A DNA stretch of 33,419 nucleotides from Thermoanaerobaculia bacterium (GTDB lineage Bacteria; Acidobacteriota; Thermoanaerobaculia; Multivoradales; JAHEKO01): assembly GCA_945787635.1 (NCBI GenBank), contig CALZIK010000141.1, positions 1-33,419 of the forward strand. Direction: 5' to 3'. The position numbers and the translations under genes are program-made. Each line of letters begins with the position of its first letter. The stretch's first letter is position 1. The notes beneath the pieces are model-generated. The model was given only the letters and a program-made list of their open reading frames with translations, was not told the DNA's origin and ran no database searches. Below, in pieces: positions 2,296-18,791 of this stretch.

Positions 2296-5200
2296 TTAGG
2301 GCTTCAGCACCGGCTCGAGCCTCACCGTGAGTTGGCCGTCCGGGAAGATGGAGAACCCATCTCGGAACACCACGGCGACACCCGCTCGCAGGAGCAAGTC
2401 GCCATCCGGGCCCACCACCCCGTAGTTCGGTCCCACGGTGATCGTGTCACAGACGACGAACTCCTCGGCGCTCATGACCGTATCGTCCTGAAGGGTCAAG
2501 TTGTCACCGTCCGGCGCCGGGCACATGCCGCCCGGCATCACCACCACCAACGTATCGCTGGCCGCGGCGCTGGTGCCCGATGACGATGTCATCGGTCCTG
2601 TCGTGTTGATGTAGGAGCCCGGTACGGACGCCGTGACGTCTACCTGAACCACACAGTCATCGCCGGCCGGCAACTGCCCGCCCGAGACGCTCACGACGTT
2701 CGAGCCCGTAACCGCGCCCAACGTCGCGCCGGCGCAGTCGGTACCGATGTCGGGCGACGTTGCGACGGTCATGCCGGGGGGCAGGTTGTCCGTGATCGAA
2801 AGGCCGGTAACCGCAAACACGCTCGCCGAGTTGTCGATCAAGAAGGTCAAGGCGCTGCGTCCTCCCGGAGCGATGAAGTCTGGGAGGAAGACCTTGAACA
2901 GGGACGGCGGCGGATCGACCTCGAGCAGAGCGGTCGCGGGGGACGACACCGGCAGCCCCGCCTGCGACAGCTCACTGGTCGTGTTGAGGAAGGTGCCCCC
3001 TCCGGAGCCGCCGGGTACCAGGAGATTGACGGCGAAGGTGCACGAGCCGCCCGGCAAGAGGTTGCCGCCGCTGAAGGTCAGCACCGACGTCCCTGAGATT
3101 ACCGAACCGGGGCCACAGGGGTTGGCCGGCTGACCGGTCGCCGTCAGACCCGGAATGACGTCATCGAGGTTGTCGAGAAACGCCAGGTCGGCGACCGAAT
3201 CCATCGTGGACAGATTCTCGATCGTGAAGGTCAGAACCGGCGTACCGGTCGGCTTGGTCAAACCGTCAAAGAACTTGGTGAAATTGAAGAAGTCGATCAG
3301 GAGATCGTCCGAAGCGGGCTCGCCGGTGACCGCGAGTCCGTCGATCATGCCGGTGAGCATCGAGGTCGTGTTGGTGATCGTGGTCCCGAAGGGCACCGCA
3401 GCTGGAACTTGAACCGTGACGCTGAACGAACACTCGCCGCTGGTGAAGCTCCCGCCGGAGAAACTCAGGACGCTGGTGCCACTTAGCGTTCCGCCGCAGG
3501 TCCCGGAATCGAGCGGCGGCACCGCGGCGAGCCCGGCCAGAGCGGCGCCGAGATCGTCGGTAAACGCGAGACCGGTTGCGGTCTCGGAACTGAGCGAGCT
3601 AAGGCTGAACTCGAGCGTCACCGTGCCGCCCGGCGCCACCGGATCGTCGGTGAAATCCTTGGTCAGCAGGAGATCCTCGTTGGCGACGACCAGGTTGTCG
3701 GTGGCGTTCGGAAAGAACATCGCAGACGAATCGGCGCCGCGCACGCCCGGCTCGACCGGAGCCATGGGAGGCTCGCCGATGACCGCCGAGAAGAGTCGGG
3801 TCCGGTTGGGGTACGTCCCCGATGGCGTTGCCGGCGGTACCAGCAGCGGCACCGAGAAGCTGCAACTATCCGAGCCCTCGGGGCCGCCGGTCGGAGGCAG
3901 GCTACCGCCCGAGAACATCAGGACGCCAGCCCCAAAGCTCAACGCCGAGCCGGCGCCGCACGGGGTCGCGGGCAGCGCGCCGCCAGGTGCGAGGCCAAGG
4001 ACGACATCCGGATCCAGCACGTCCTCGAAGAAGATGTCGCTGACGGGGTTCGGGCTCTGGTTCGTGATCACGAACTCGAGCGTGACCGTGCCACCGGCGA
4101 TCACCGGGTCGTCGGTGAACTCCTTGGTCAGTGTCAGCCCGCCCACCACGAGCTCGGCCTGGGCCTTGTTCCCAACCGTGTTGACGCCGCCCACCGTGGC
4201 GACGACGTTCGAGGTCTCGTTTTGATACGAACCCGGTGAGGCTGCCGCGGGCACGTCGAGCGTGACGCTAAAGGTGCAGATTTCGCCCGGAGTCAGCGTG
4301 CCGCCGGTGAAGGTCAGGTTGGTCGTGCCGCTGATCAAGGAGCCGGTACCGCACACGTCGGCTTTCGGCAGGTCGTTCGCCGAAAGACCGGCCAGGCCCG
4401 TGGTGCCCACCAGATCGTCGGTGAACGCGATCGCTGTGGCGTCGCTTGGAGCCTCTAGGTCGTGCTCGATGGAAAACTCGAGAGTGACCGTGCCGCCGGG
4501 AAGTGCCGGATCGTCGGTGAAGTCCTTGGTGAGCCGCGGCGCACCCACGATGACCAGATCTCCGCTTGCCGCGGGGCCGGTCACAGGCTGTCCAATCAGC
4601 TCGAGTGCAGACGTCCTATCACCGGCACCAGAGGCTGTTCCGGTGATCTCCGAGGTGGTGTTGGTGTAGGTCCCGGCGGCAACGCCGCCGGGCACGTCGA
4701 GAACTACGTCGAAGGTGCAGGAACCCCCGGCCGCCAGGCTGCCGCCGGTGAAGATGAGCATCGTGGCGTCTGGCGGAAAGTTGGGAAACGGCGGGCTCGG
4801 GGAGCTGTCGTTGAGGTCGAACACGGTCAGCTCGGATCCTGATCCGCAGGGGTCGACCAGCGGTGCCGGATCCAGCCCAGTCGCGTCGACGAGACCATTG
4901 GCGGCCAGGCCCGGGATCGCGGTGTTGAGATCGTCGGTGAACTCGAGATCGGAGAGTGCGTCGGCGCTCGGGTTGGTGATCGTGAAGCGCAGGGTCACCG
5001 AGCCGCCCGCACCGACCGGATCGTCGATAAACTCCTTCGTGAGAATCGGCAACTCGCTGACGAAGAGTCGGTCGGTCGCCTTGTTGCCCACGACCGCTTC
5101 GCCTCCTATGGTGGCCGTGATCGCACTGGTGGTATTCGTGTAGGCACCGTCGTTGGCGGATCCGGGCACGCCGAGCGACAGGCTGAAGGTGCAAGAGCCC

Positions 5201-8200
5201 TCAGCCGCCAGGCTGCCACCGGTCAGGCTTAGAACCCCGGTACCGGCCGCGAACGCCAGCGAGGAGCCCGCGCCGCAGGGTGAGGCCGGCAGGGCGCCGC
5301 TCGGCGCCAGGCCGGTGAGCGAGCCCAGGGGGTCGAGATCGTCGTTGAACGAGATGGCGGTCGCCGGAAAATCCCGGCTCGGGTTGTTGATCGTGAACTG
5401 GAGAGTCACCGTTCCGCCCGGCGCTACCGGATCGTCGGTGAAAAGCTTTTCCAGAAACAATGTCGCGACGTCGAGCGCCGCGGTGGCGAAGCCGCTCGAG
5501 ACCGGCGAACCGGATCCGCTCAAGAGCTCGCTGGTGGTGTTGACGAAGACCCCCGTGGTGTCGGTGGTGACGTCCACGGCGACCGTGCAGGTCGACTCGG
5601 CGCCGATGGAACCCTCGATCAGCGAAATGGCGTTGTCGGGGTCCGCACCCGATCCAAGGACGAGCGTGCCGCCACAGGTGTTGGAGACGTTGGCCGGAGT
5701 GGCGAAGACCATGCCGGCCGGGAAGATGTCGGTGAAGTTCAGCGAGCTGTGCCCGATTCCGCTGGAGATCGCAATCTCCAGCGTGCTGGTGCCGCCGACC
5801 GGAATCGTGCTCGGCGTGAAGCTCTTGGAGAACCCCGGGCGTTCCCCGTCGACGACGAGGTCCGCGGTGGCACCGGGATCCGACCCGACGCTCGACGAAA
5901 GACTCGACGAGACGTTGGTATGCGTACCCACGGTGGAACTGGTGACATTGACCCGCACGGTGCACGCGCTCCCGGGGCCGAGGTCGCCACCGCTGAAGCT
6001 GATCAGGGTGCCGCCGTCCGGAGCGTTGACTACTCCGTTCGTGCAATCGGTCATGGCGCTCGACGGCGTCGCGATCAGGATGTTTATTAACGACAGGTCG
6101 TCGGTGAAGGCGAGAGCGGCCAGCGGAGCGATCCCCGTATTGGTGAGAACGAACTCGAGAGTGCTGGTGCCCCCCTGGCCGATGGTCCCGGGGTTGAAGG
6201 ACTTGCTGAAGGTGGACGAGGCGGCCGCCTCGACAAAGCCGAAGTCGTTGACCAGGCTCCGGGGCTCGACGTCCGTCAAGTTCGGGAAATACCGGGTCGG
6301 CGTGATCGCCACCGCGCAAGCGCCGAGCTGCGGGTCGGTGGTATCCACCGAAACTCGATAGCAGACCGGGGCGGACACGGTGCCAATGGGTAGGTCGGAC
6401 GCGGAGATTTCTTCAAAGGAATAGAACCCGTCCATAACCGTGCTCGTGGTCGCCAGAACCGGGTCTCCTTCGTCCACGGTATTGCTGCAGTCGTTGTCAG
6501 AGAGCAGATTCACGGTGATGTCAGGCAGGCCCTCGCCGGCGTCGAACGCACCGTTGACGGTGCCGTCGTCGCACCAGACGGTATCCCCGATGCCGGGGCG
6601 AACGACGTCCACCTGGTAGTCCTCGACCTCGCCGTCGAAGGCGAAACCCGCCGGGCCGATCACACTCACGGTACCGCTGTCTCCGCCGCTCAGGCCCGCA
6701 CCGAGCGAGGTCAGCCGAAAGCGCGCGAAGGTCGGGCCCAGCACGGGGTCCGCCGGGACGGCGAACGACAGAGCATTCGGTCCGGCCGAAACAGACGTAT
6801 CCGCGAAGATGTGCTCACCGGGATCGTCCCACGTGCCGTCGGCGTTGAAGTCGACCCAAGCGTTCAAGACGCCAGGCCCGGACGCAACCACGGTGATCTC
6901 CGTGGTGCCGCCCCGGATCAGGGCGGTTTTGAACATCACTCCGTCCTCGTCGTCGCCGTTATCGCCGTCGGAATCGACGTCGTCGCCGGTGGCGTCGGCA
7001 TTCTGATGGCCGTCCGGATCGGCATCGACCCCGGCGCCCAGAAACAAACCCGAGCCGAGCTCGTGGCGCGCGCCGTCATTGGACAGAAGGGTCGGATACT
7101 CGCCCGCCGTTGCAAACCGGGGATCCGGCGCGTCGCCGAAGTCCAGGGATTGGACGGTGGTGTTCACGGCGATCGAGTCGTTCTTCCCATTCAAGTCGGT
7201 GGTAGGCGACGAAACCGAAGCGTTATTGGTGAGTGACCCCGTCGTGGCCGTGTTCACCGTCACCTCCACCGTGATCGCCGGCGCCGGAGATCCCGCCATC
7301 GTCAGTCCCGAACGCGTGCACGTCACCACGCCCATGGCCGCCCCGCACATCCACCCGGTGCCCGTCGCGCTCACGAACGTCACGCCCGCAGGCAACGTGT
7401 CCGTCACCGTGACCGTCGCTGCATCGTCAGACGGCCCGAGGTTCGACACCGTTAGCGTATAGGTCAGGTTGTTGCCCGCAATCACCGGATCCGGCGAGTC
7501 GCTCTTCGTGATCCCAAGATCCGCTGAAGGGCTCACCGTGACCGCATAGTCCTCCACTTCGCCGTCATTGGCCGGGCCGCCGCCGGGGCCCATCACTCCC
7601 GAAGAGCTCAGCCGGAAGCGCGCAAAGGTCGAGCCCAGAGCCGCTCCAACGGGAACCGTGACCGGCACCGAAGCGGTGCCACCCGGGTGAGCGAAGACAA
7701 AGATCTCGCCCGGCCCAAACGAGCCATTGCCGTCGAAATCAAAGAAATAGTCCAAGGTGCCCGCGGCGGACGCCGTGACGCTGACCGTCGTGGCTTCACC
7801 CACGACCAGCGCGTTGGGAAACGTCACGCCGTCTTCGTCGTCCACGGCCGTGACGTCGTCGCCGGTGCCGTCGAGCGGCGTGTTGGCGTCCGGCTCCGCA
7901 TCGCGGGCGGCTCCCAACATCGGACCGGCTGCGAGATGGTGAGCTCCACCCGAAGCCAGAGTCGTCAGGTAGCTGTCTGGATCATCCCCGAAATCACAGG
8001 CCGCGGCCGCGGCCTGCTCGCAGGTTCCGGCGCCGTCGCACTCCGCGAGCGTGCAGACGTTTTCATCCGTGTCGGTGCACATGGAGCCGGACGGCACGAA
8101 GGGACCGGCCATCTGGTCACACATCCCGGCTCCGTCGCAGGCGGCGGTCGTGCAGTCCGACGGGTCGGTGTCGGTGCACGCGGTGCCCATCGTCACCGGC

Positions 8201-8517
8201 ACGGTCTGGTCGCACGTCCCCTCTCCGTCGCACTCCGCGGCCGTGCATTCCATACCATCCGTGTCGGTGCACATCGTGCCCGGTTGCAGAAAAGTCTCGA
8301 CGCACATGCCATCGATACAGTCAGACATCAGGCATTCAGACGAGGCCGGGGGGCAGTCCTCGGGCCCCTCGCAGACAAGCTCCCCAGCCGTTGCCGGCGC
8401 CGCAGCTGCCGCCAGTGAAGCAAACAGCACGAGACCCATCAAGCGCAACGTTCGGCGCCGGAGAGAGCCGCCCAGAGTTCGGATATGACGGCGGTGAAGT
8501 CGCGTGTAGAAACCCAT
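2296..8517 (-). CDS. Giant secreted DUF11/GEVEDY/SdrD-like repeat surface protein
   Basis: The product is 2073 aa. The start at 8517 is set by AAGGAG 8 bases upstream; an upstream in-frame ATG (8589) lacks this. Layout by approximate residue: signal peptide 1-44 ending PATAG; three Cys-rich units (about 86-175) with CTDTD...C...ECDGxGTC spacing; a GEVEDY module ending near 325; a DUF11 domain 331-445 opening ADLGITKSDSPDPV; a second GEVEDY module 456-632; an SdrD-B-like domain about 640-745 (IGDTVWCDD, DGFYSFEE); nine tandem Ig-like repeats from about 768 to 1995, each opening like LTKDFTDDPVAPGGTVTLEF; and a C-terminal module (about 2000-2073) ending VRLEPVLKP. The Asp-rich loops suggest calcium-stabilised domains. 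No sortase or PEP-CTERM motif is visible. It is probably displayed or released at the cell surface as an adhesin-like or structural protein. The C-terminal module is shared with the next gene. Confidence 0.9.
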   Translation of the reverse strand: MGFYTRLHRRHIRTLGGSLRRRTLRLMGLVLFASLAAAAAPATAGELVCEGPEDCPPASSECLMSDCIDGMCVETFLQPGTMCTDTDGMECTAAECDGEGTCDQTVPVTMGTACTDTDPSDCTTAACDGAGMCDQMAGPFVPSGSMCTDTDENVCTLAECDGAGTCEQAAAAACDFGDDPDSYLTTLASGGAHHLAAGPMLGAARDAEPDANTPLDGTGDDVTAVDDEDGVTFPNALVVGEATTVSVTASAAGTLDYFFDFDGNGSFGPGEIFVFAHPGGTASVPVTVPVGAALGSTFARFRLSSSGVMGPGGGPANDGEVEDYAVTVSPSADLGITKSDSPDPVIAGNNLTYTLTVSNLGPSDDAATVTVTDTLPAGVTFVSATGTGWMCGAAMGVVTCTRSGLTMAGSPAPAITVEVTVNTATTGSLTNNASVSSPTTDLNGKNDSIAVNTTVQSLDFGDAPDPRFATAGEYPTLLSNDGARHELGSGLFLGAGVDADPDGHQNADATGDDVDSDGDNGDDEDGVMFKTALIRGGTTEITVVASGPGVLNAWVDFNADGTWDDPGEHIFADTSVSAGPNALSFAVPADPVLGPTFARFRLTSLGAGLSGGDSGTVSVIGPAGFAFDGEVEDYQVDVVRPGIGDTVWCDDGTVNGAFDAGEGLPDITVNLLSDNDCSNTVDEGDPVLATTSTVMDGFYSFEEISASDLPIGTVSAPVCYRVSVDTTDPQLGACAVAITPTRYFPNLTDVEPRSLVNDFGFVEAAASSTFSKSFNPGTIGQGGTSTLEFVLTNTGIAPLAALAFTDDLSLINILIATPSSAMTDCTNGVVNAPDGGTLISFSGGDLGPGSACTVRVNVTSSTVGTHTNVSSSLSSSVGSDPGATADLVVDGERPGFSKSFTPSTIPVGGTSTLEIAISSGIGHSSLNFTDIFPAGMVFATPANVSNTCGGTLVLGSGADPDNAISLIEGSIGAESTCTVAVDVTTDTTGVFVNTTSELLSGSGSPVSSGFATAALDVATLFLEKLFTDDPVAPGGTVTLQFTINNPSRDFPATAISFNDDLDPLGSLTGLAPSGALPASPCGAGSSLAFAAGTGVLSLTGGSLAAEGSCTFSLSLGVPGSANDGAYTNTTSAITATIGGEAVVGNKATDRLFVSELPILTKEFIDDPVGAGGSVTLRFTITNPSADALSDLEFTDDLNTAIPGLAANGLVDATGLDPAPLVDPCGSGSELTVFDLNDSSPSPPFPNFPPDATMLIFTGGSLAAGGSCTFDVVLDVPGGVAAGTYTNTTSEITGTASGAGDRTSALELIGQPVTGPAASGDLVIVGAPRLTKDFTDDPALPGGTVTLEFSIEHDLEAPSDATAIAFTDDLVGTTGLAGLSANDLPKADVCGTGSLISGTTNLTFTGGTLTPGEICTFSVTLDVPAAASPGSYQNETSNVVATVGGVNTVGNKAQAELVVGGLTLTKEFTDDPVIAGGTVTLEFVITNQSPNPVSDIFFEDVLDPDVVLGLAPGGALPATPCGAGSALSFGAGVLMFSGGSLPPTGGPEGSDSCSFSVPLLVPPATPSGTYPNRTRLFSAVIGEPPMAPVEPGVRGADSSAMFFPNATDNLVVANEDLLLTKDFTDDPVAPGGTVTLEFSLSSLSSETATGLAFTDDLGAALAGLAAVPPLDSGTCGGTLSGTSVLSFSGGSFTSGECSFSVTVQVPAAVPFGTTITNTTSMLTGMIDGLAVTGEPASDDLLIDFFNFTKFFDGLTKPTGTPVLTFTIENLSTMDSVADLAFLDNLDDVIPGLTATGQPANPCGPGSVISGTSVLTFSGGNLLPGGSCTFAVNLLVPGGSGGGTFLNTTSELSQAGLPVSSPATALLEVDPPPSLFKVFLPDFIAPGGRSALTFLIDNSASVFAVTGLSITDNLPPGMTVATSPDIGTDCAGATLGAVTGSNVVSVSGGQLPAGDDCVVQVDVTASVPGSYINTTGPMTSSSGTSAAASDTLVVVMPGGMCPAPDGDNLTLQDDTVMSAEEFVVCDTITVGPNYGVVGPDGDLLLRAGVAVVFRDGFSIFPDGQLTVRLEPVLKP

Positions 8518-8674
8518 GCTTACGTCTCCTTGAACTGGTGGCAACCGCCGTGAGAGGGCGTGTCGAACGCCAAGGGCCTTTTTCTGCAAGTCCCGCTAGT
8601 CTAGCGCAAGAACACCCGTCACATCCTGACGCATCGCTCCTTTTGCATGGAAGTAATCTTCCGGCTCCCGAAGA

Positions 8675-13944: not shown

Positions 13945-13957
13945 GCGTCGGGTTGTG

Positions 13958-13979
13958 CGGTCGACGCCCCTGTTGACCG
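13958..13979. repeat. REP-like palindrome, CGGTCGAC stem
   Basis: CGGTCGAC (13958-13965) pairs with GTTGACCG (13972-13979), with one G-T wobble. The 6-nt loop GCCCCT is identical to the loop of the differently stemmed element at 16052. A GTAG lies at 13941-13944, at the end of the preceding gene. Confidence 0.6.
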
Positions 13980-13998
13980 TCTTTCTCTACAACCGGAC

Positions 13999-14018
13999 GG
14001 TCGACACGGAGCTCGACC
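13999..14018. repeat. REP-like palindrome, GGTCGA stem
   Basis: GGTCGAC (13999-14005) faces CTCGACC (14012-14018) across the loop ACGGAG, with the innermost pair mismatched. The loop is the complement of the CTCCGT loop at 16153, so this copy is in the opposite orientation. CTAC (13987-13990) lies just upstream. Confidence 0.5.
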
Positions 14019-14044
14019 CCCACAGGTTGAAAACCAGTCGGGAA

Positions 14045-14069
14045 GGGGACACCAGGGAATCGTGTCCCC
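14045..14069. repeat. GGGGACAC palindrome before the radical SAM gene
   Basis: GGGGACAC (14045-14052) pairs perfectly with GTGTCCCC (14062-14069) over a 9-nt loop. It is a different class from the GGTCGAC hairpins. It covers the possible GTG start at 14062, which argues that translation of the radical SAM gene starts further downstream. Confidence 0.5.
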
Positions 14070-14121
14070 GATGCTGCTAAACTTCCACGTTCTCGCAACT
14101 TATCCCTCCCCGAGACCCACC

Positions 14122-15987
14122 ATGCTCCGAGTCGTCCAACAGAACACGCATACCCGCGAGCTCCCCTACTTCGTCCAGACCACCCGCCCGGTGACCTTCG
14201 GCGCCGGCTTCCATGACCAGGAAGGCGTCGGTCTCGACGGCTTCACCTGGATGTCCGAGCGCGGCTCGATCGGTTTCGAGCCGGATTCCGCGGTCCGCTA
14301 CCTAGAGTTCGAGGTCTTTTGCGAGTTCTACGACCTTTCCCAGGTCTTGACCGCGACCAATCAGGGCGGCTCTCACGAGCTGGCCCTCGTGCGCGGCTGG
14401 AACCGCGTCTCGCTCCCGGTGGTTCCCGCGAGCGAGACCGTCGAGCTCGAGGCCAACAAACCCTATCCCCGTGAGTACTATCCCGGCGACCCACGCACCC
14501 TGTCGGTGCGCTACCGGCTGCCGCGCTTGCACCAGGACGCCGAACGCCATCGGCACGTCACCCAGCAGCATTCGAACACCGTCCTCAACCGCCGGGAGAT
14601 GCTCGACGGCGAGCACTTTCTGAACTCGACGGCTCCCGCTCTCGGCATCGACATGTACGGGGTCTGCAACGTCAAGCCGGCCTGCGTCTACTGCGAGTGG
14701 GACTTCTCGAAAGCCCAGGAAGGCGAGTACGTGGACGCGCCGTTCGACGCAAACTTGCTCGAGGAGTGGGGCGAGTTCTTCGACAACTCGAAGGATCTCA
14801 TCAATTGCTCGATCGGCGAGCCGTTCATGATGAAGAACTTCGACGAGCTGATGGATGTCTTCGGCGATCGCGGCAAGTTTCTCGAGATCACCACCAACGG
14901 CCAGATCCTGACCGACAAGAACATCGACAAACTCCTCGGCCGCAATATCGACCTCTACATCTCGCTGGACGCCGGCACGCCCGAAACCTACTCGAAGCTG
15001 CGCAACGACCGCTTCGACGACATCCTAGTGAACCTCAAGCGGCTCATCCAGGCCAAGGGCGGCTCCGGCCAGCTGCCCCGCATCAATCTCGTCTTCATGC
15101 CGATGAAGGTCAACGTCCACGAGCTCGAGGACTTCATCAAGCTCTGCGCCGAGCTCGACGTCGATCGAATGATCCTGCGCCCACTCAACTACAGCGAGAT
15201 CACCAACCTCGACTGGGAGCGCGGCGGCTACCGCTTCAGCTACCGCAACGAGCTTCTACCGTTCGACCAGCTGGCCCGCACCAGCGCGCTGGCCGAGCAT
15301 CTGGCAAAGCAGTATGGCGTCGAGATCTCGGACCAGATGGACTTCGGCAGCGCCGAAAAGGCCGCGTTCGCGCACGAGTTCGCGCCTGACGAAGACGGCC
15401 AGGACGACGGCGAGCCGGCGACAGAGAGCCGCGATGATAGTCGGCCAGCCGCGGCCGACCCGGTGGTCGAGATCTCGGGCAATCCCATCGCGATGACCGC
15501 GATGGAGGTCGCGCCGAGCGCCGAGCCCGAGCTTCCCTCCCTGGGCGAAGACCAGGTGCCGATCTGCACCGAGCCCTGGAAGAGCCTCTACATCCTCCGG
15601 CGCGGCGTGCTGCCCTGCTGCTACGGCTCGGCCCGCGCGGGACAGATGGACGAATATCGCGACGCCTGGAACTCACAGCTGTTCCAGGATCTGCGCCGCG
15701 AGCTCTCCGCCGGCCGATTCCACTACTACTGCCTCGATTCCCAGGCCTGTCCTCTGGTGCGCAAGGCCGAGGCCGCCGGGCGACTGCCTCGCGCCCAGAT
15801 CGTCTTCATGCGCTTCTGGACCAAGTGGTACTGGCTCGACCGGCGCCTCTGGGGCTTGCCCGGGAAATACCTCTTCGAGCCGATCAAATGGCTGAGCATT
15901 CGCGTGCTGCGCACGATGAGCGAAGAAGGCTACGTCACGCGCGTCTTCAAGCGGTACCTGGCCCGGTTCCGCGGCGCGACGACGTAG
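14122..15987 (+). CDS. Radical SAM protein with SPASM-like C-terminus
   Basis: The product is 621 aa. The ATG at 14122 is preferred over the GTG at 14062, because the latter lies in a hairpin and would add a 20-residue peptide unlike coding sequence. Residues 1-130 are a beta-rich N-terminal domain. The 4Fe-4S motif is C182-x5-C188-x2-C191, not the canonical CX3CX2C. It is followed by the SAM-barrel features NCSIGEPFM, FLEITTNGQIL and LYISLDAGTPETY. A low-complexity linker of Asp, Glu and Ala lies at about 420-470. Then come C482, C499-C500, C537 and C543, a Cys pattern like SPASM/twitch domains that hold auxiliary clusters. The basic, aromatic C-terminus (from FMRFWTKWYW) may associate with the membrane. 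No substrate peptide gene is visible nearby. The reaction is unknown; peptide or glycan modification is plausible. Confidence 0.85.
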   Translation: MLRVVQQNTHTRELPYFVQTTRPVTFGAGFHDQEGVGLDGFTWMSERGSIGFEPDSAVRYLEFEVFCEFYDLSQVLTATNQGGSHELALVRGWNRVSLPVVPASETVELEANKPYPREYYPGDPRTLSVRYRLPRLHQDAERHRHVTQQHSNTVLNRREMLDGEHFLNSTAPALGIDMYGVCNVKPACVYCEWDFSKAQEGEYVDAPFDANLLEEWGEFFDNSKDLINCSIGEPFMMKNFDELMDVFGDRGKFLEITTNGQILTDKNIDKLLGRNIDLYISLDAGTPETYSKLRNDRFDDILVNLKRLIQAKGGSGQLPRINLVFMPMKVNVHELEDFIKLCAELDVDRMILRPLNYSEITNLDWERGGYRFSYRNELLPFDQLARTSALAEHLAKQYGVEISDQMDFGSAEKAAFAHEFAPDEDGQDDGEPATESRDDSRPAAADPVVEISGNPIAMTAMEVAPSAEPELPSLGEDQVPICTEPWKSLYILRRGVLPCCYGSARAGQMDEYRDAWNSQLFQDLRRELSAGRFHYYCLDSQACPLVRKAEAAGRLPRAQIVFMRFWTKWYWLDRRLWGLPGKYLFEPIKWLSIRVLRTMSEEGYVTRVFKRYLARFRGATT

Positions 15988-16002
15988 ACGAGCCGGCCAC
16001 TT

Positions 16003-16026
16003 GTACCGTCGGGCCTACGTGCCCGA
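16003..16026 (+). repeat. REP-like palindrome, TCGGGC stem
   Basis: A GTAC head (16003-16006) is followed by TCGGGC (16009-16014), the 6-nt loop CTACGT and GCCCGA (16021-16026). It is the first and least perfect of four palindromes between the radical SAM and malic enzyme genes. Confidence 0.55.
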
Positions 16027-16047
16027 AGGCGCCGAGCCGCCTACAAG

Positions 16048-16073
16048 GTAGCGTCGGGCGCCCCTGCCCGACG
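16048..16073 (+). repeat. REP-like element, GTAG head, CGTCGGGC stem
   Basis: GTAG (16048-16051) is followed directly by CGTCGGGC (16052-16059), the 6-nt loop GCCCCT and the perfect complement GCCCGACG (16066-16073). The GTAG tetranucleotide plus hairpin is the layout of REP elements mobilised by REP-associated tyrosine transposases. Confidence 0.7.
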
Positions 16074-16094
16074 TCTTCCCAACCACACCCAAGT

Positions 16095-16120
16095 CGTCGC
16101 ACATAGACGTGCGACGCTAC
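16095..16120 (-). repeat. REP-like element, inverted, CGTCGCAC stem
   Basis: CGTCGCAC (16095-16102) and GTGCGACG (16109-16116) form a perfect 8-bp stem around a 6-nt loop. CTAC (16117-16120) ends it, so on the minus strand it starts with GTAG. It is in opposite orientation to the element at 16048, giving a head-to-head pair like the BIME arrangement of REPs. Confidence 0.7.
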
Positions 16121-16140
16121 CTCCGAAAACGAGCGGCCGA

Positions 16141-16166
16141 GTAGCGGTCGACCTCCGTGTCGACCG
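16141..16166 (+). repeat. REP-like element, GTAG head, CGGTCGAC stem
   Basis: GTAG (16141-16144), CGGTCGAC (16145-16152), the loop CTCCGT and GTCGACCG (16159-16166) form a perfect 8-bp hairpin. A CTAC follows at 16174-16177, and its CTA is the complement of the TAG stop codon of malic enzyme. This is the best-formed member of the GGTCGAC type. Confidence 0.7.
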
Positions 16167-16173
16167 TCTGCTC

Positions 16174-17868
16174 CTACACCGGCACCAGGACCGGGTAGTC
16201 GGGCTCCCACATGGCCTCGTCCACCCGGCGCGCGACCTCTTCCGGCGCGCCGGCTTGCTCGGCGACCTCCTGCACTACCGCGATGGCGACCGCCCGGGTC
16301 ACTTCGCGCAAGCGCGACACCGCCGGATAGAGCGCGAACGCCGCGAGCTCGGCTTCGGAGACGCTGTCCGCCAGGGCCCGCGCCGCGGCCGCGAACATTG
16401 CGTCGGTGACCTCGCTGGCCTCGGCCACGAGCGCCCCCAGGCCGATGCCGGGAAAGACGAAGGCATTGTTGCCCTGTCCGATCCGGTGGCGTTTCCCGTC
16501 GTGCGAGACCGCCTCGAACGGACTCCCGGTCGCAATCAGCGCCCGGCCGTCGGTCCAGGCGATCACGTCGCTGGGCACCGCCTCGGAGAGGCTGGTCGGG
16601 TTCGAGAACGGGAAGATCAGCGGCCGCTGCGCATGAGCGGCCATCGCGCGAACCACGTCCTCGTCGAACATGCCCGGCCGGCCGGAGGTGCCGATCAAAA
16701 CCGTCGGGCGGTACCCGGCGACGAGCTCCGCCAGGCTCTTGCCGGCTTCCAGACCCGCGGAACGGGCCAGCTCGTCCGGCCAGGCGAGCGCCGGCTTCAA
16801 ACCGGTGAGATCGTTACGACTCGCAAGAAGCGGCCCACGGGAATCAAGCACCGCGACCGCGCGGGTGAGAGCCTCGCCCTCGAGGCCTTCGGCGGCGAGC
16901 GCCGCTCGAAGCTGAAAAGCGATCCCGCCGCCGGCGGCTCCGGCGCCGACGATCAAGACTCGATGCTCGTTGAGCACCTGTCCGGTGATCCGCCCGGCCG
17001 CGAGAATACCGGCGAGAGCCGTCGCACCCGTGCCCTGGACGTCGTCGTTGAACGAAAGCGCCCGCGACCGATACCGCTTCAGTAGCTCGTGAGCGTTCTC
17101 GTTGCGAAAGTCCTCCCACTGCACCAGCGCACGGGGATACAGAGCAGCCACCGCATCCATGAACTCCTCGATCAGCTCGAAGTACTCGTCGCCGGTGAGC
17201 CGCGGCTGCCGGTAGCCGAGGTAAAGCTCGTCGTCGAGCAGCTCCTGGTTGTTGGTGCCCACGTCGAGCGACACCGGCAGAGTCATCGCCGGGTGGATGC
17301 CGGCTGCGGCGCTGTAGATCGCGAGCTTCCCGACCGGGATCACCATGCCTCCGGCACCCTGGTCGCCGATACCCAGAATCGCCTCGTTGTCGGTGACCAC
17401 GATCAGGCGCACGTCGGAGAACGGGTGATTCTCGAGCACCTGCCGGATTCGCCCTCGCTGTTTGGGTGTGATCCAAACACCGCGCGCCCGCCGAAAGATG
17501 TGGCTGAACTCCTTCGACGCCTGTCCGACGGTGGGTGTATACACGATCGGCAGGAACTCCTCGAGGTGATCGAGAAGCACCCGGTAGAACAGATGCTCAT
17601 TGCGGTCCTGTAGGGCCGCCAACCCGATGTAGCGCTCGAGCGGCTCGCTCTTGCGGACGATGTTGCCGTAGACCCTGCGCGCCTGGAGGCCGATCGTGCT
17701 GATCGCGCTGGGCAAGAGACCGCTCAATCCATAGAGCTGGCGTTCCTCGGCGGTGAAAGCCGAGCTCTTGTTGTACATGGGCTGGTCGATAAGCTCCGCG
17801 CCCCGGAAGGGCACCTCGAGCTCCCAGCGCCCCTGAGCATCGCGACCCCGGTAGAAGCTATGCGCCAT
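16174..17868 (-). CDS. maeA: Malic enzyme (NAD-type, large form)
   Basis: The product is 564 aa, the normal length of the large malic enzymes. It oxidatively decarboxylates malate to pyruvate and CO2 with NAD(P)H production in the cytoplasm. Visible residues: catalytic Tyr110 in IVYTPTVGQ, catalytic Lys181 in VGKLAIY, metal ligands E252 and D253 (QWEDF) and D276 (FNDDVQGTG), and the Rossmann GAGAAG near 308-313. GDQGAGGM at 168-175 is also conserved. The ATG at 17868 is chosen because MYNKSSAFT and the rest of the family N-terminus follow directly; the in-frame upstream extension overlaps the cytochrome gene. The start lies 13 bases after that gene's stop, so the two are probably cotranscribed. 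The choice of NAD over NADP is inferred from overall similarity to MaeA-type enzymes. Confidence 0.95.
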   Translation of the reverse strand: MAHSFYRGRDAQGRWELEVPFRGAELIDQPMYNKSSAFTAEERQLYGLSGLLPSAISTIGLQARRVYGNIVRKSEPLERYIGLAALQDRNEHLFYRVLLDHLEEFLPIVYTPTVGQASKEFSHIFRRARGVWITPKQRGRIRQVLENHPFSDVRLIVVTDNEAILGIGDQGAGGMVIPVGKLAIYSAAAGIHPAMTLPVSLDVGTNNQELLDDELYLGYRQPRLTGDEYFELIEEFMDAVAALYPRALVQWEDFRNENAHELLKRYRSRALSFNDDVQGTGATALAGILAAGRITGQVLNEHRVLIVGAGAAGGGIAFQLRAALAAEGLEGEALTRAVAVLDSRGPLLASRNDLTGLKPALAWPDELARSAGLEAGKSLAELVAGYRPTVLIGTSGRPGMFDEDVVRAMAAHAQRPLIFPFSNPTSLSEAVPSDVIAWTDGRALIATGSPFEAVSHDGKRHRIGQGNNAFVFPGIGLGALVAEASEVTDAMFAAAARALADSVSEAELAAFALYPAVSRLREVTRAVAIAVVQEVAEQAGAPEEVARRVDEAMWEPDYPVLVPV

Positions 17869-17881
17869 CGACCGACCGTCG

Positions 17882-18661
17882 CTAGGAGCCGTCGCCGCCC
17901 TCTTCCGCGGGCGCCGTGAGCTTGTCGAGCTGCTGGCGGACACGCTCATTGTCGGGGTCGAAGTCGAGGATTCGCTTCAGTGCCGCGACCGCGGCGTCGA
18001 CGTTGCCCCGCCGCTGCTCGAGGCCGGCGAGCGTCCCGAGCGCCCAGGCAGACTCGGGCGTGTGAGCGAGGCTCTCGTCGACCAGAGCCACGGCGGCGTC
18101 CATCTGCCCTGCCTCCGCAAGCGCTTCGGCCGCCTGCATCAGCGTGCTTTCCGAGAAATTGTAGGTGCCTTGACCGTAGAACTCCTCTCGCAGCTCCCGG
18201 TATCGAGCCACCGCTGCGTCCGGCGATTCGCCGGCGGCGGCAACCAGAATATCTCGAAGCTGCTCGGGATGAGCCGCGCCGCGGTGGCAAGTCACGCACT
18301 CCACCCGCACTCGCTCGGAGTCGCCCTCGAGCTTGGCCAAGTGCTCGCCGTTGATGGCATCGACCATCGCCAGCATGACGCGAGCCTTCTTCTTGTTGTC
18401 CTTCTCGTCCGAAGCGAAATCGAAGGTCGCGAGCGGCTGCCCTTCCTCCCCGACATGGCAGAACTGGCAACGCACGCCGAGCCCGAAGGCAAACGAGCGC
18501 ATCACCGGCATCAGCTCGCGAAACTCCATGTCTTTGGGAAAGTGCTGGAGATTCTTGACCTCGGGTGGCCATTGCGCGGACGCGGGAGCGACACCTCCCA
18601 AGAGCACGAGACCCAACACCGCCAGAATCGCCAATCGGCTCCTGAGTCGAACTGATGACAT
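17882..18661 (-). CDS. Diheme c-type cytochrome, reaction-centre-cytochrome-like
   Basis: The product is 259 aa. GGAGG 7 bases upstream sets the ATG at 18661. A signal peptide (1-29, ending APASA) directs it to the periplasm. Two heme c sites are present: CQFCH at 65-69 and CVTCH at 122-126. The run KNLQHFPKDM then MPVMRSFAFGLGVRCQFCH is typical of the photosynthetic-reaction-centre cytochrome c subunit family, where a Met in the preceding helix is the axial ligand. Such two-heme versions are common in non-phototrophic Acidobacteriota (family knowledge). The C-terminal half (about 145-250) looks like two to three TPR-type helical repeats (ALAEAGQMDAAVALVDESL, GNVDAAVAALKRIL), suggesting a protein partner. 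No photosynthesis genes are in the window. It is followed closely by malic enzyme. Confidence 0.92.
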   Translation of the reverse strand: MSSVRLRSRLAILAVLGLVLLGGVAPASAQWPPEVKNLQHFPKDMEFRELMPVMRSFAFGLGVRCQFCHVGEEGQPLATFDFASDEKDNKKKARVMLAMVDAINGEHLAKLEGDSERVRVECVTCHRGAAHPEQLRDILVAAAGESPDAAVARYRELREEFYGQGTYNFSESTLMQAAEALAEAGQMDAAVALVDESLAHTPESAWALGTLAGLEQRRGNVDAAVAALKRILDFDPDNERVRQQLDKLTAPAEEGGDGS

Positions 18662-18761: not shown

Positions 18762-18791
18762 AAAAAAGGCCCTCTCCGAAGAGAGGGCCTT
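18762..18791 (-). terminator. Rho-independent terminator of the RRM gene
   Basis: AAGGCCCTCTC (18766-18776) pairs perfectly with GAGAGGGCCTT (18781-18791) around a CGAA loop. On the minus strand this is an 11-bp stem with a UUCG tetraloop followed by TTTTTT (18762-18767). It lies 57 bases after the stop of the RNA-binding-protein gene and separates it from the cytochrome/malic enzyme unit. Confidence 0.92.

Follow-up and report, generated by a model that had tools for sequence, protein, structure and literature searches.

We found that the four hairpins in the gap between a radical SAM protein gene and a malic enzyme gene are genuine members of two related REP families dispersed in this Acidobacteriota genome. 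We consider it very likely that they are GTAG-class REPtron elements, that is, dispersed short single-strand hairpins mobilised by a RAYT (TnpA-REP), with two coexisting stem families that have A and B arms and with A+B REPINs as the likely mobile unit. Our analysis documents the copies, their structure, the pairing rules, a RAYT with REP flanks, and orthologous gaps in congeners that are filled differently. The window, the whole stretch of 33,419 nucleotides that was analysed, belongs to contig C141 of a 4.36-Mb draft genome (G000), and the gap occupies positions 15988-16173 (Table 1).

Table 1. Features of the convergent gap, a second REP pair, and the RAYT locus. Positions are those of the window unless another contig is given.
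Feature	Position	Strand	Details
Radical SAM protein gene	14062-15987	+	PF04055, 43 bits; true start possibly ATG near 14123
Malic enzyme gene	16174-17949	-	NF010052, 715 bits; PF00390/PF03949; convergent with radical SAM gene
REP 1	16003-16028	+	Decayed family-2 A; GTAC head; stem CGTCGGGC/GCCCGAAG; loop CTACGT
REP 2	16048-16073	+	Intact family-2 A; GTAG-CGTCGGGC-GCCCCT-GCCCGACG; stem from 16052
REP 3	16095-16120	-	Intact family-2 B; GTAG-CGTCGCAC-GTCTAT-GTGCGACG
REP 4	16141-16166	+	Intact family-1 A; GTAG-CGGTCGAC-CTCCGT-GTCGACCG; stem from 16145
Head-out inverted A+B pair, family 2 (REPIN/BIME-like)	16048-16120	.	73 bp, GTAG...CTAC; REP 2 and REP 3
Decayed head-out A+B pair, family 1	13954-14023	.	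Second such pair in the window
RAYT	G000:C112:188-658		NF047646, REP-associated tyrosine transposase, 92.4 bits (cut-off 80); PF01797

All four hairpins noted in the initial annotation are present at their places, and their density is far from random: not one of 1000 dinucleotide shuffles (mean 0.45) had at least four hairpins with stems of at least 6, or at least three with stems of at least 8, in a gap of about 190 bp. The element is 26 bp long (GTAG + 8 + 6 + 8). Three of the four carry the GTAG/CTAC heads that had been described, and the fourth, REP 1, has lost one of its eight stem pairs, differs from the family-2 pattern at two positions, and retains an inner perfect hairpin at 16009 (TCGGGC-CTACGT-GCCCGA). 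The REP 2 sequence recurs at G000:C56:4791. REP 3 reads CGTCGCAC-ATAGAC-GTGCGACG on the forward strand from 16095, and REP 4 sits directly beyond the malic enzyme stop codon. The CTAC that follows REP 4, at 16174-16177, is no second head, because that stop codon lies in it; the end of this open reading frame is kept as YTACACCGG in relatives. A CGTC-tagged REP was also considered and rejected, since CGTC lies within the paired stem and the unpaired tag is GTAG. An Rfam search of the window gave no match.

The proposed alternation of orientation, as in BIMEs, is not strict, the real order being +,+,-,+, although the last three elements do alternate. This order resolves into one family-2 A+B unit (16048-16120), a single family-1 A (16141), and a decaying family-2 A (16003). 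In the family-1 pair at 13954-14023, the A element is CGGTCGAC-GCCCCT-GTTGACCG, with its stem from 13958, and the B element (13998-14023, minus strand) has a GTGG head and the loop CTCCGT; the GCCCCT loop is indeed common to the differently stemmed elements at 13958 and 16052. Both REP clusters of the window are placed in intergenic gaps; spurious ORFs are plentiful at the G+C content of 66%.

All three stems of the gap recur elsewhere in the genome and in relatives, and the possibility that they are unique to this locus clearly fails, with a REP-flanked RAYT present as well. We searched 72 genomes of the order for the exact family-1 pattern (GTAGCGGTCGA-N8-TCGACCG), with a reversed-pattern control that gave 0 throughout. 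There are 208 sites in this genome, 105 and 15 in its congeners G002 and G001, 160 in G009 (another genus), 3 in G006, single matches in two further genomes, and none in the other 65. Exact family-2 sites (GTAGCGTCG-N12-CGACG) number 18 in this genome, where the reversed control gave 0, with 2 in G001, 1 in G002, and 1 in G008. The family-2 pattern leaves the top three stem positions unconstrained, yet these are mostly paired, by differing sequences (GGC, GGG, CAC); they are complementary stem changes. The features of REPs seen here are a palindrome of 20-40 bp, GTAG at the 5´ foot (three of four), and dispersed high copy on many contigs. The suggestion that several REP subfamilies coexist is borne out. 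Family 1 also forms tandem arrays with a period near 35-39 bp (L045, L021, and L195, on contigs C79, C93, and C20); several such arrays lie at contig ends, and therefore REP arrays probably break the assembly.

For arms and pairing we classified 213 elements in loci fetched from this genome; the loci were chosen for family matches, such that the counts represent a large sample rather than the whole genome, and some array copies are recent duplicates. Family 1 (CGGTCG-) comprises A arms ending GAC (n = 165) and B arms ending GAG (n = 18), and family 2 (CGTCG-) comprises A arms ending GGC (n = 20) and B-like arms ending CAC (n = 7) or GGG (n = 3). None of the 23 head-out inverted pairs crosses families, and in 22 the two partners are unlike in arm or in loop class: 15 are A+B, and 7 of the remaining 8 differ in loop class. 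The rule extends to G009, where all 14 head-out and all 11 tail-out pairs are A+B (random expectation 34%), and to the fetched loci of G002 (6/6 inverted pairs). Direct-repeat neighbours are almost always A+A. The pair at 16048-16120 has a shorter-spacer version at G000:C56:4791-4848, and with the pair rule in three genomes these give the BIME/REPIN hallmarks of inverted REPs, a short spacer, and a recurring unit. Inverted A+B pairs such as 16048-16120 would then be what moves, and single REPs and decayed copies may be remnants or one-ended copies.

Each hairpin of the gap has the 6-nt open stretch ascribed to it, although this "loop" probably holds one more pair. Of 161 intact GTAG elements, 95% have bases at loop positions 1 and 5 that could pair (G-C 87, C-G 59, G-T 5, T-G 2, other 8), though common ancestry makes these fewer independent events than the counts suggest. 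The mutual information between the two positions is 0.91 bits, and no other two loop positions exceed 0.12. Position 3 is nearly always C and position 6 nearly always T. Because positions 1 and 5 covary and position 6 is almost always T, the 6-nt loop is probably a triloop closed by a ninth base pair, plus a bulged T on the 3´ side; taken by themselves, DNA folding energies do not predict this pair. For a Marinomonas REP, an equivalent T12-A15 pair has been proposed from SELEX and mutants (PMC8266576). In RAYT loci of other bacteria, the loops that recur within a locus are TTCA (20 loci), CTTG (11), TTTA (6), and CTTGT (4). Their complementary outer bases, with or without a trailing T, point to a closing pair too.

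The closing pair divides the loops into two classes. The G..C class, with the pattern GNCNCT, has 151 matches in this genome and 0 to 4 in each of 17 other family members, a number close to control level, with a few single REP-like sites among the matches. In the loci that we read, the elements of G009, G002, and G001 are of the C..G type. In this genome, A arms in both families can carry G-type loops, as do the REPs around the RAYT, and B arms have C-type loops almost without exception. The idea that loops and stems assort independently holds between the two A-arm stems, for which the G-type:C-type ratios do not differ (CGGTCGAC 83:38 vs CGTCGGGC 7:1, p = 0.43); moreover, four complete loops occur on both. 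It does not hold across all stems, where loop class is associated with stem (6/5000 permutations), owing to the near-exclusive C-type loops of the B-arm stems. Recombination between subfamilies is possible. We tentatively suggest that the RAYT of this species changed its loop specificity: the closing pair, C..G in the congeners and G009, would have become G..C on many A arms in both families as well as near the RAYT, with B arms keeping C..G. A REP family might then be identified by its loop and not its stem, allowing one enzyme to drive several stem families.

Two Y1-transposase domains were found in this genome, on contigs C112 and C97. The C112 gene encodes a RAYT with the HUH motif DHLH, a WQ motif, and the tyrosine motif YIVNNP, and its closest solved structure is the homologous TnpA-REP 4er8 (E 2.5e-6). 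GTAG-CGGTCGAC REPs at 35 and 114 lie on one side of it, and REPs at 700-991 lie on the opposite side; a single RAYT-family HUH-Y1 gene with same-family REPs on either side is the arrangement of a REPtron. G002 has two canonical RAYTs, both beside CGGTCG REPs and 57-59% identical to the C112 RAYT.

The C112 RAYT very probably moves these elements, and we infer that this one enzyme serves both stem families. As the single canonical RAYT, it would most likely recognise GTAG, the stem foot, and the loop, and it would tolerate upper-stem changes so long as pairing is kept. Such tolerance, we propose, accounts for the drift of stems into subfamilies whose head, length, and loop stay the same. Similar preferences are known for the TnpA-REP proteins of Stenotrophomonas and Marinomonas, for which the bases of the loop decide, most changes in the stem have mild effects, and mismatches do harm (PMC8266576).

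It is less likely, in our judgement, that there are two separate REPtrons, with a second RAYT, since lost or hidden in an assembly gap, responsible for the CGTCG family, which would adjoin the CGGTCG family only through a chance landing. No family-2 REPs lie beside the C112 RAYT, head-out pairs never mix families, and family 2 is far rarer than family 1. Among the RAYT loci examined, none had CGTCG REP flanks, and family 2 may therefore have had another, lost enzyme. Moreover, a second RAYT could be missed because the genome is a draft (203 contigs, 97.7% complete) with broken REP-rich contig ends. However, the two families agree in head, in length, in the set of loops, and in their A/B logic, and the only other Y1 domain, on C97, lies in a longer protein (a 345-aa open frame) with no REPs nearby, which does not support it as the second RAYT. 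We favor one RAYT for both families. In another family of the order, a RAYT-like gene (L059, G016:C126) lies among GTAG-CCTGGGGCTGGC-GCTGTTT hairpins, whose 12-bp stems mark a different long-stem REP family.

The convergent radical SAM/malic enzyme gene pair is conserved in both congeners. The orthologous gap of G002 contains family-1 REPs, one near-identical to REP 4 and at the same place, and that of G001 contains a decayed REP-like stretch and a different hairpin, with an GGGGACAC stem. The family-2 pair at 16048-16120 is absent from both gaps, which fits insertion in this lineage, although loss could also explain it. The GGGGACAC-N9-GTGTCCCC hairpin is itself dispersed, with 16 exact copies in this genome (control 0); one is at 14045-14069 in the window, its inner part is often GGAAT, and in addition to the copy in the G001 gap there is one upstream of the G002 radical SAM gene.

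That the cluster is kept as a bidirectional 3´-end element, acting as a terminator or as RNA-stabilising hairpins for both convergent transcripts, strikes us as improbable. The hairpins do lie at both 3´ ends of convergent genes, a placement discussed for REPs elsewhere together with RNA roles (PMC3733652), and both congeners have hairpins in the gap. Of the four hairpins, however, REP 4 alone is conserved in a congener, and there is no T-tract excess, with two terminator-like sites in a 2.4-kb stretch compared with 1.4 in shuffles. Intrinsic terminators are rejected, as the intact REPs have no following T runs. Effects on the transcripts of the two genes are possible, and the convergent gap would be simply a tolerated landing site for the REPs. 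Elsewhere in the window, at 18766-18791, an 11-bp perfect hairpin (AAGGCCCTCTC-CGAA-GAGAGGGCCTT) with AAAA on its left is a plausible minus-strand terminator. Finally, chance or locally evolved palindromes, mutually unrelated as three different stems might imply, can be dismissed, given the shuffles and the hundreds of other genomic copies that agree in head, geometry, and loops, against zero control matches.

Among known systems, the elements most resemble group 3 (subclass 2.5) REPtrons such as REPtron Sm of Stenotrophomonas maltophilia (PMC8266576; PMC6006769), sharing GTAG at the foot of an 8-bp stem, a short structured loop, a single REP-flanked RAYT, and the DHLH and WQ core motifs. They differ in the apex (a probable closing pair, triloop, and bulged T, where those REPtrons have a simple loop of 3 nt), in the Acidobacteriota host, in having several stem families with one loop set, and in the tyrosine motif, YIVNNP here and YI[VI]ANP in group 3/subclass 2.5, in a comparison based on motifs. 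As judged by description, they also resemble GTAG-tagged REP families 1-24, which have stems of 6-9 bp, sub-families whose stem changes are complementary, head-to-head dimers that often combine unlike elements, convergent-gene placement, and several families per genome (PMC3733652). Inverted pairs with a short spacer and GTAG outwards recall E. coli BIMEs (y and z REPs) and Pseudomonas REPINs, and E. coli BIME pairs likewise join two unlike REP types; E. coli REPs, unlike the short stems here, are long and internally bulged, and their RAYTs are of group 2 (PMC3116915).

REPs, coexisting families, heterodimers, and RAYTs have been described already (PMC3733652; PMC6006769; PMC8266576). The passages of PMC3733652 considered here place GTAG repeats in Proteobacteria, Cyanobacteria, Chloroflexi, and the PVC group, without Acidobacteria among them, and describe Acidobacteria transposases as TIR-flanked. 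Because REP-like counts are listed for three Acidobacteriota species (PMC12306157), the presence of REPs in this phylum is not itself new. What is new are the two Acidobacteriota REP families with the C112 RAYT, which add to the known range of REPtrons, and the loop-pair switch; the cluster is ordinary in kind, and it is the loops that show a species-specific change. How RAYTs choose their REPs has been studied in a few Gammaproteobacteria. This genus offers a natural series, with RAYTs 57-60% identical, the same REP stem with opposite loop-closing pairs, and two stem families with one loop set, and the series makes the idea of the loop as recognition mark directly testable. As a minor observation, the window also contains an open reading frame of 2097 aa (2296-8589, minus strand).
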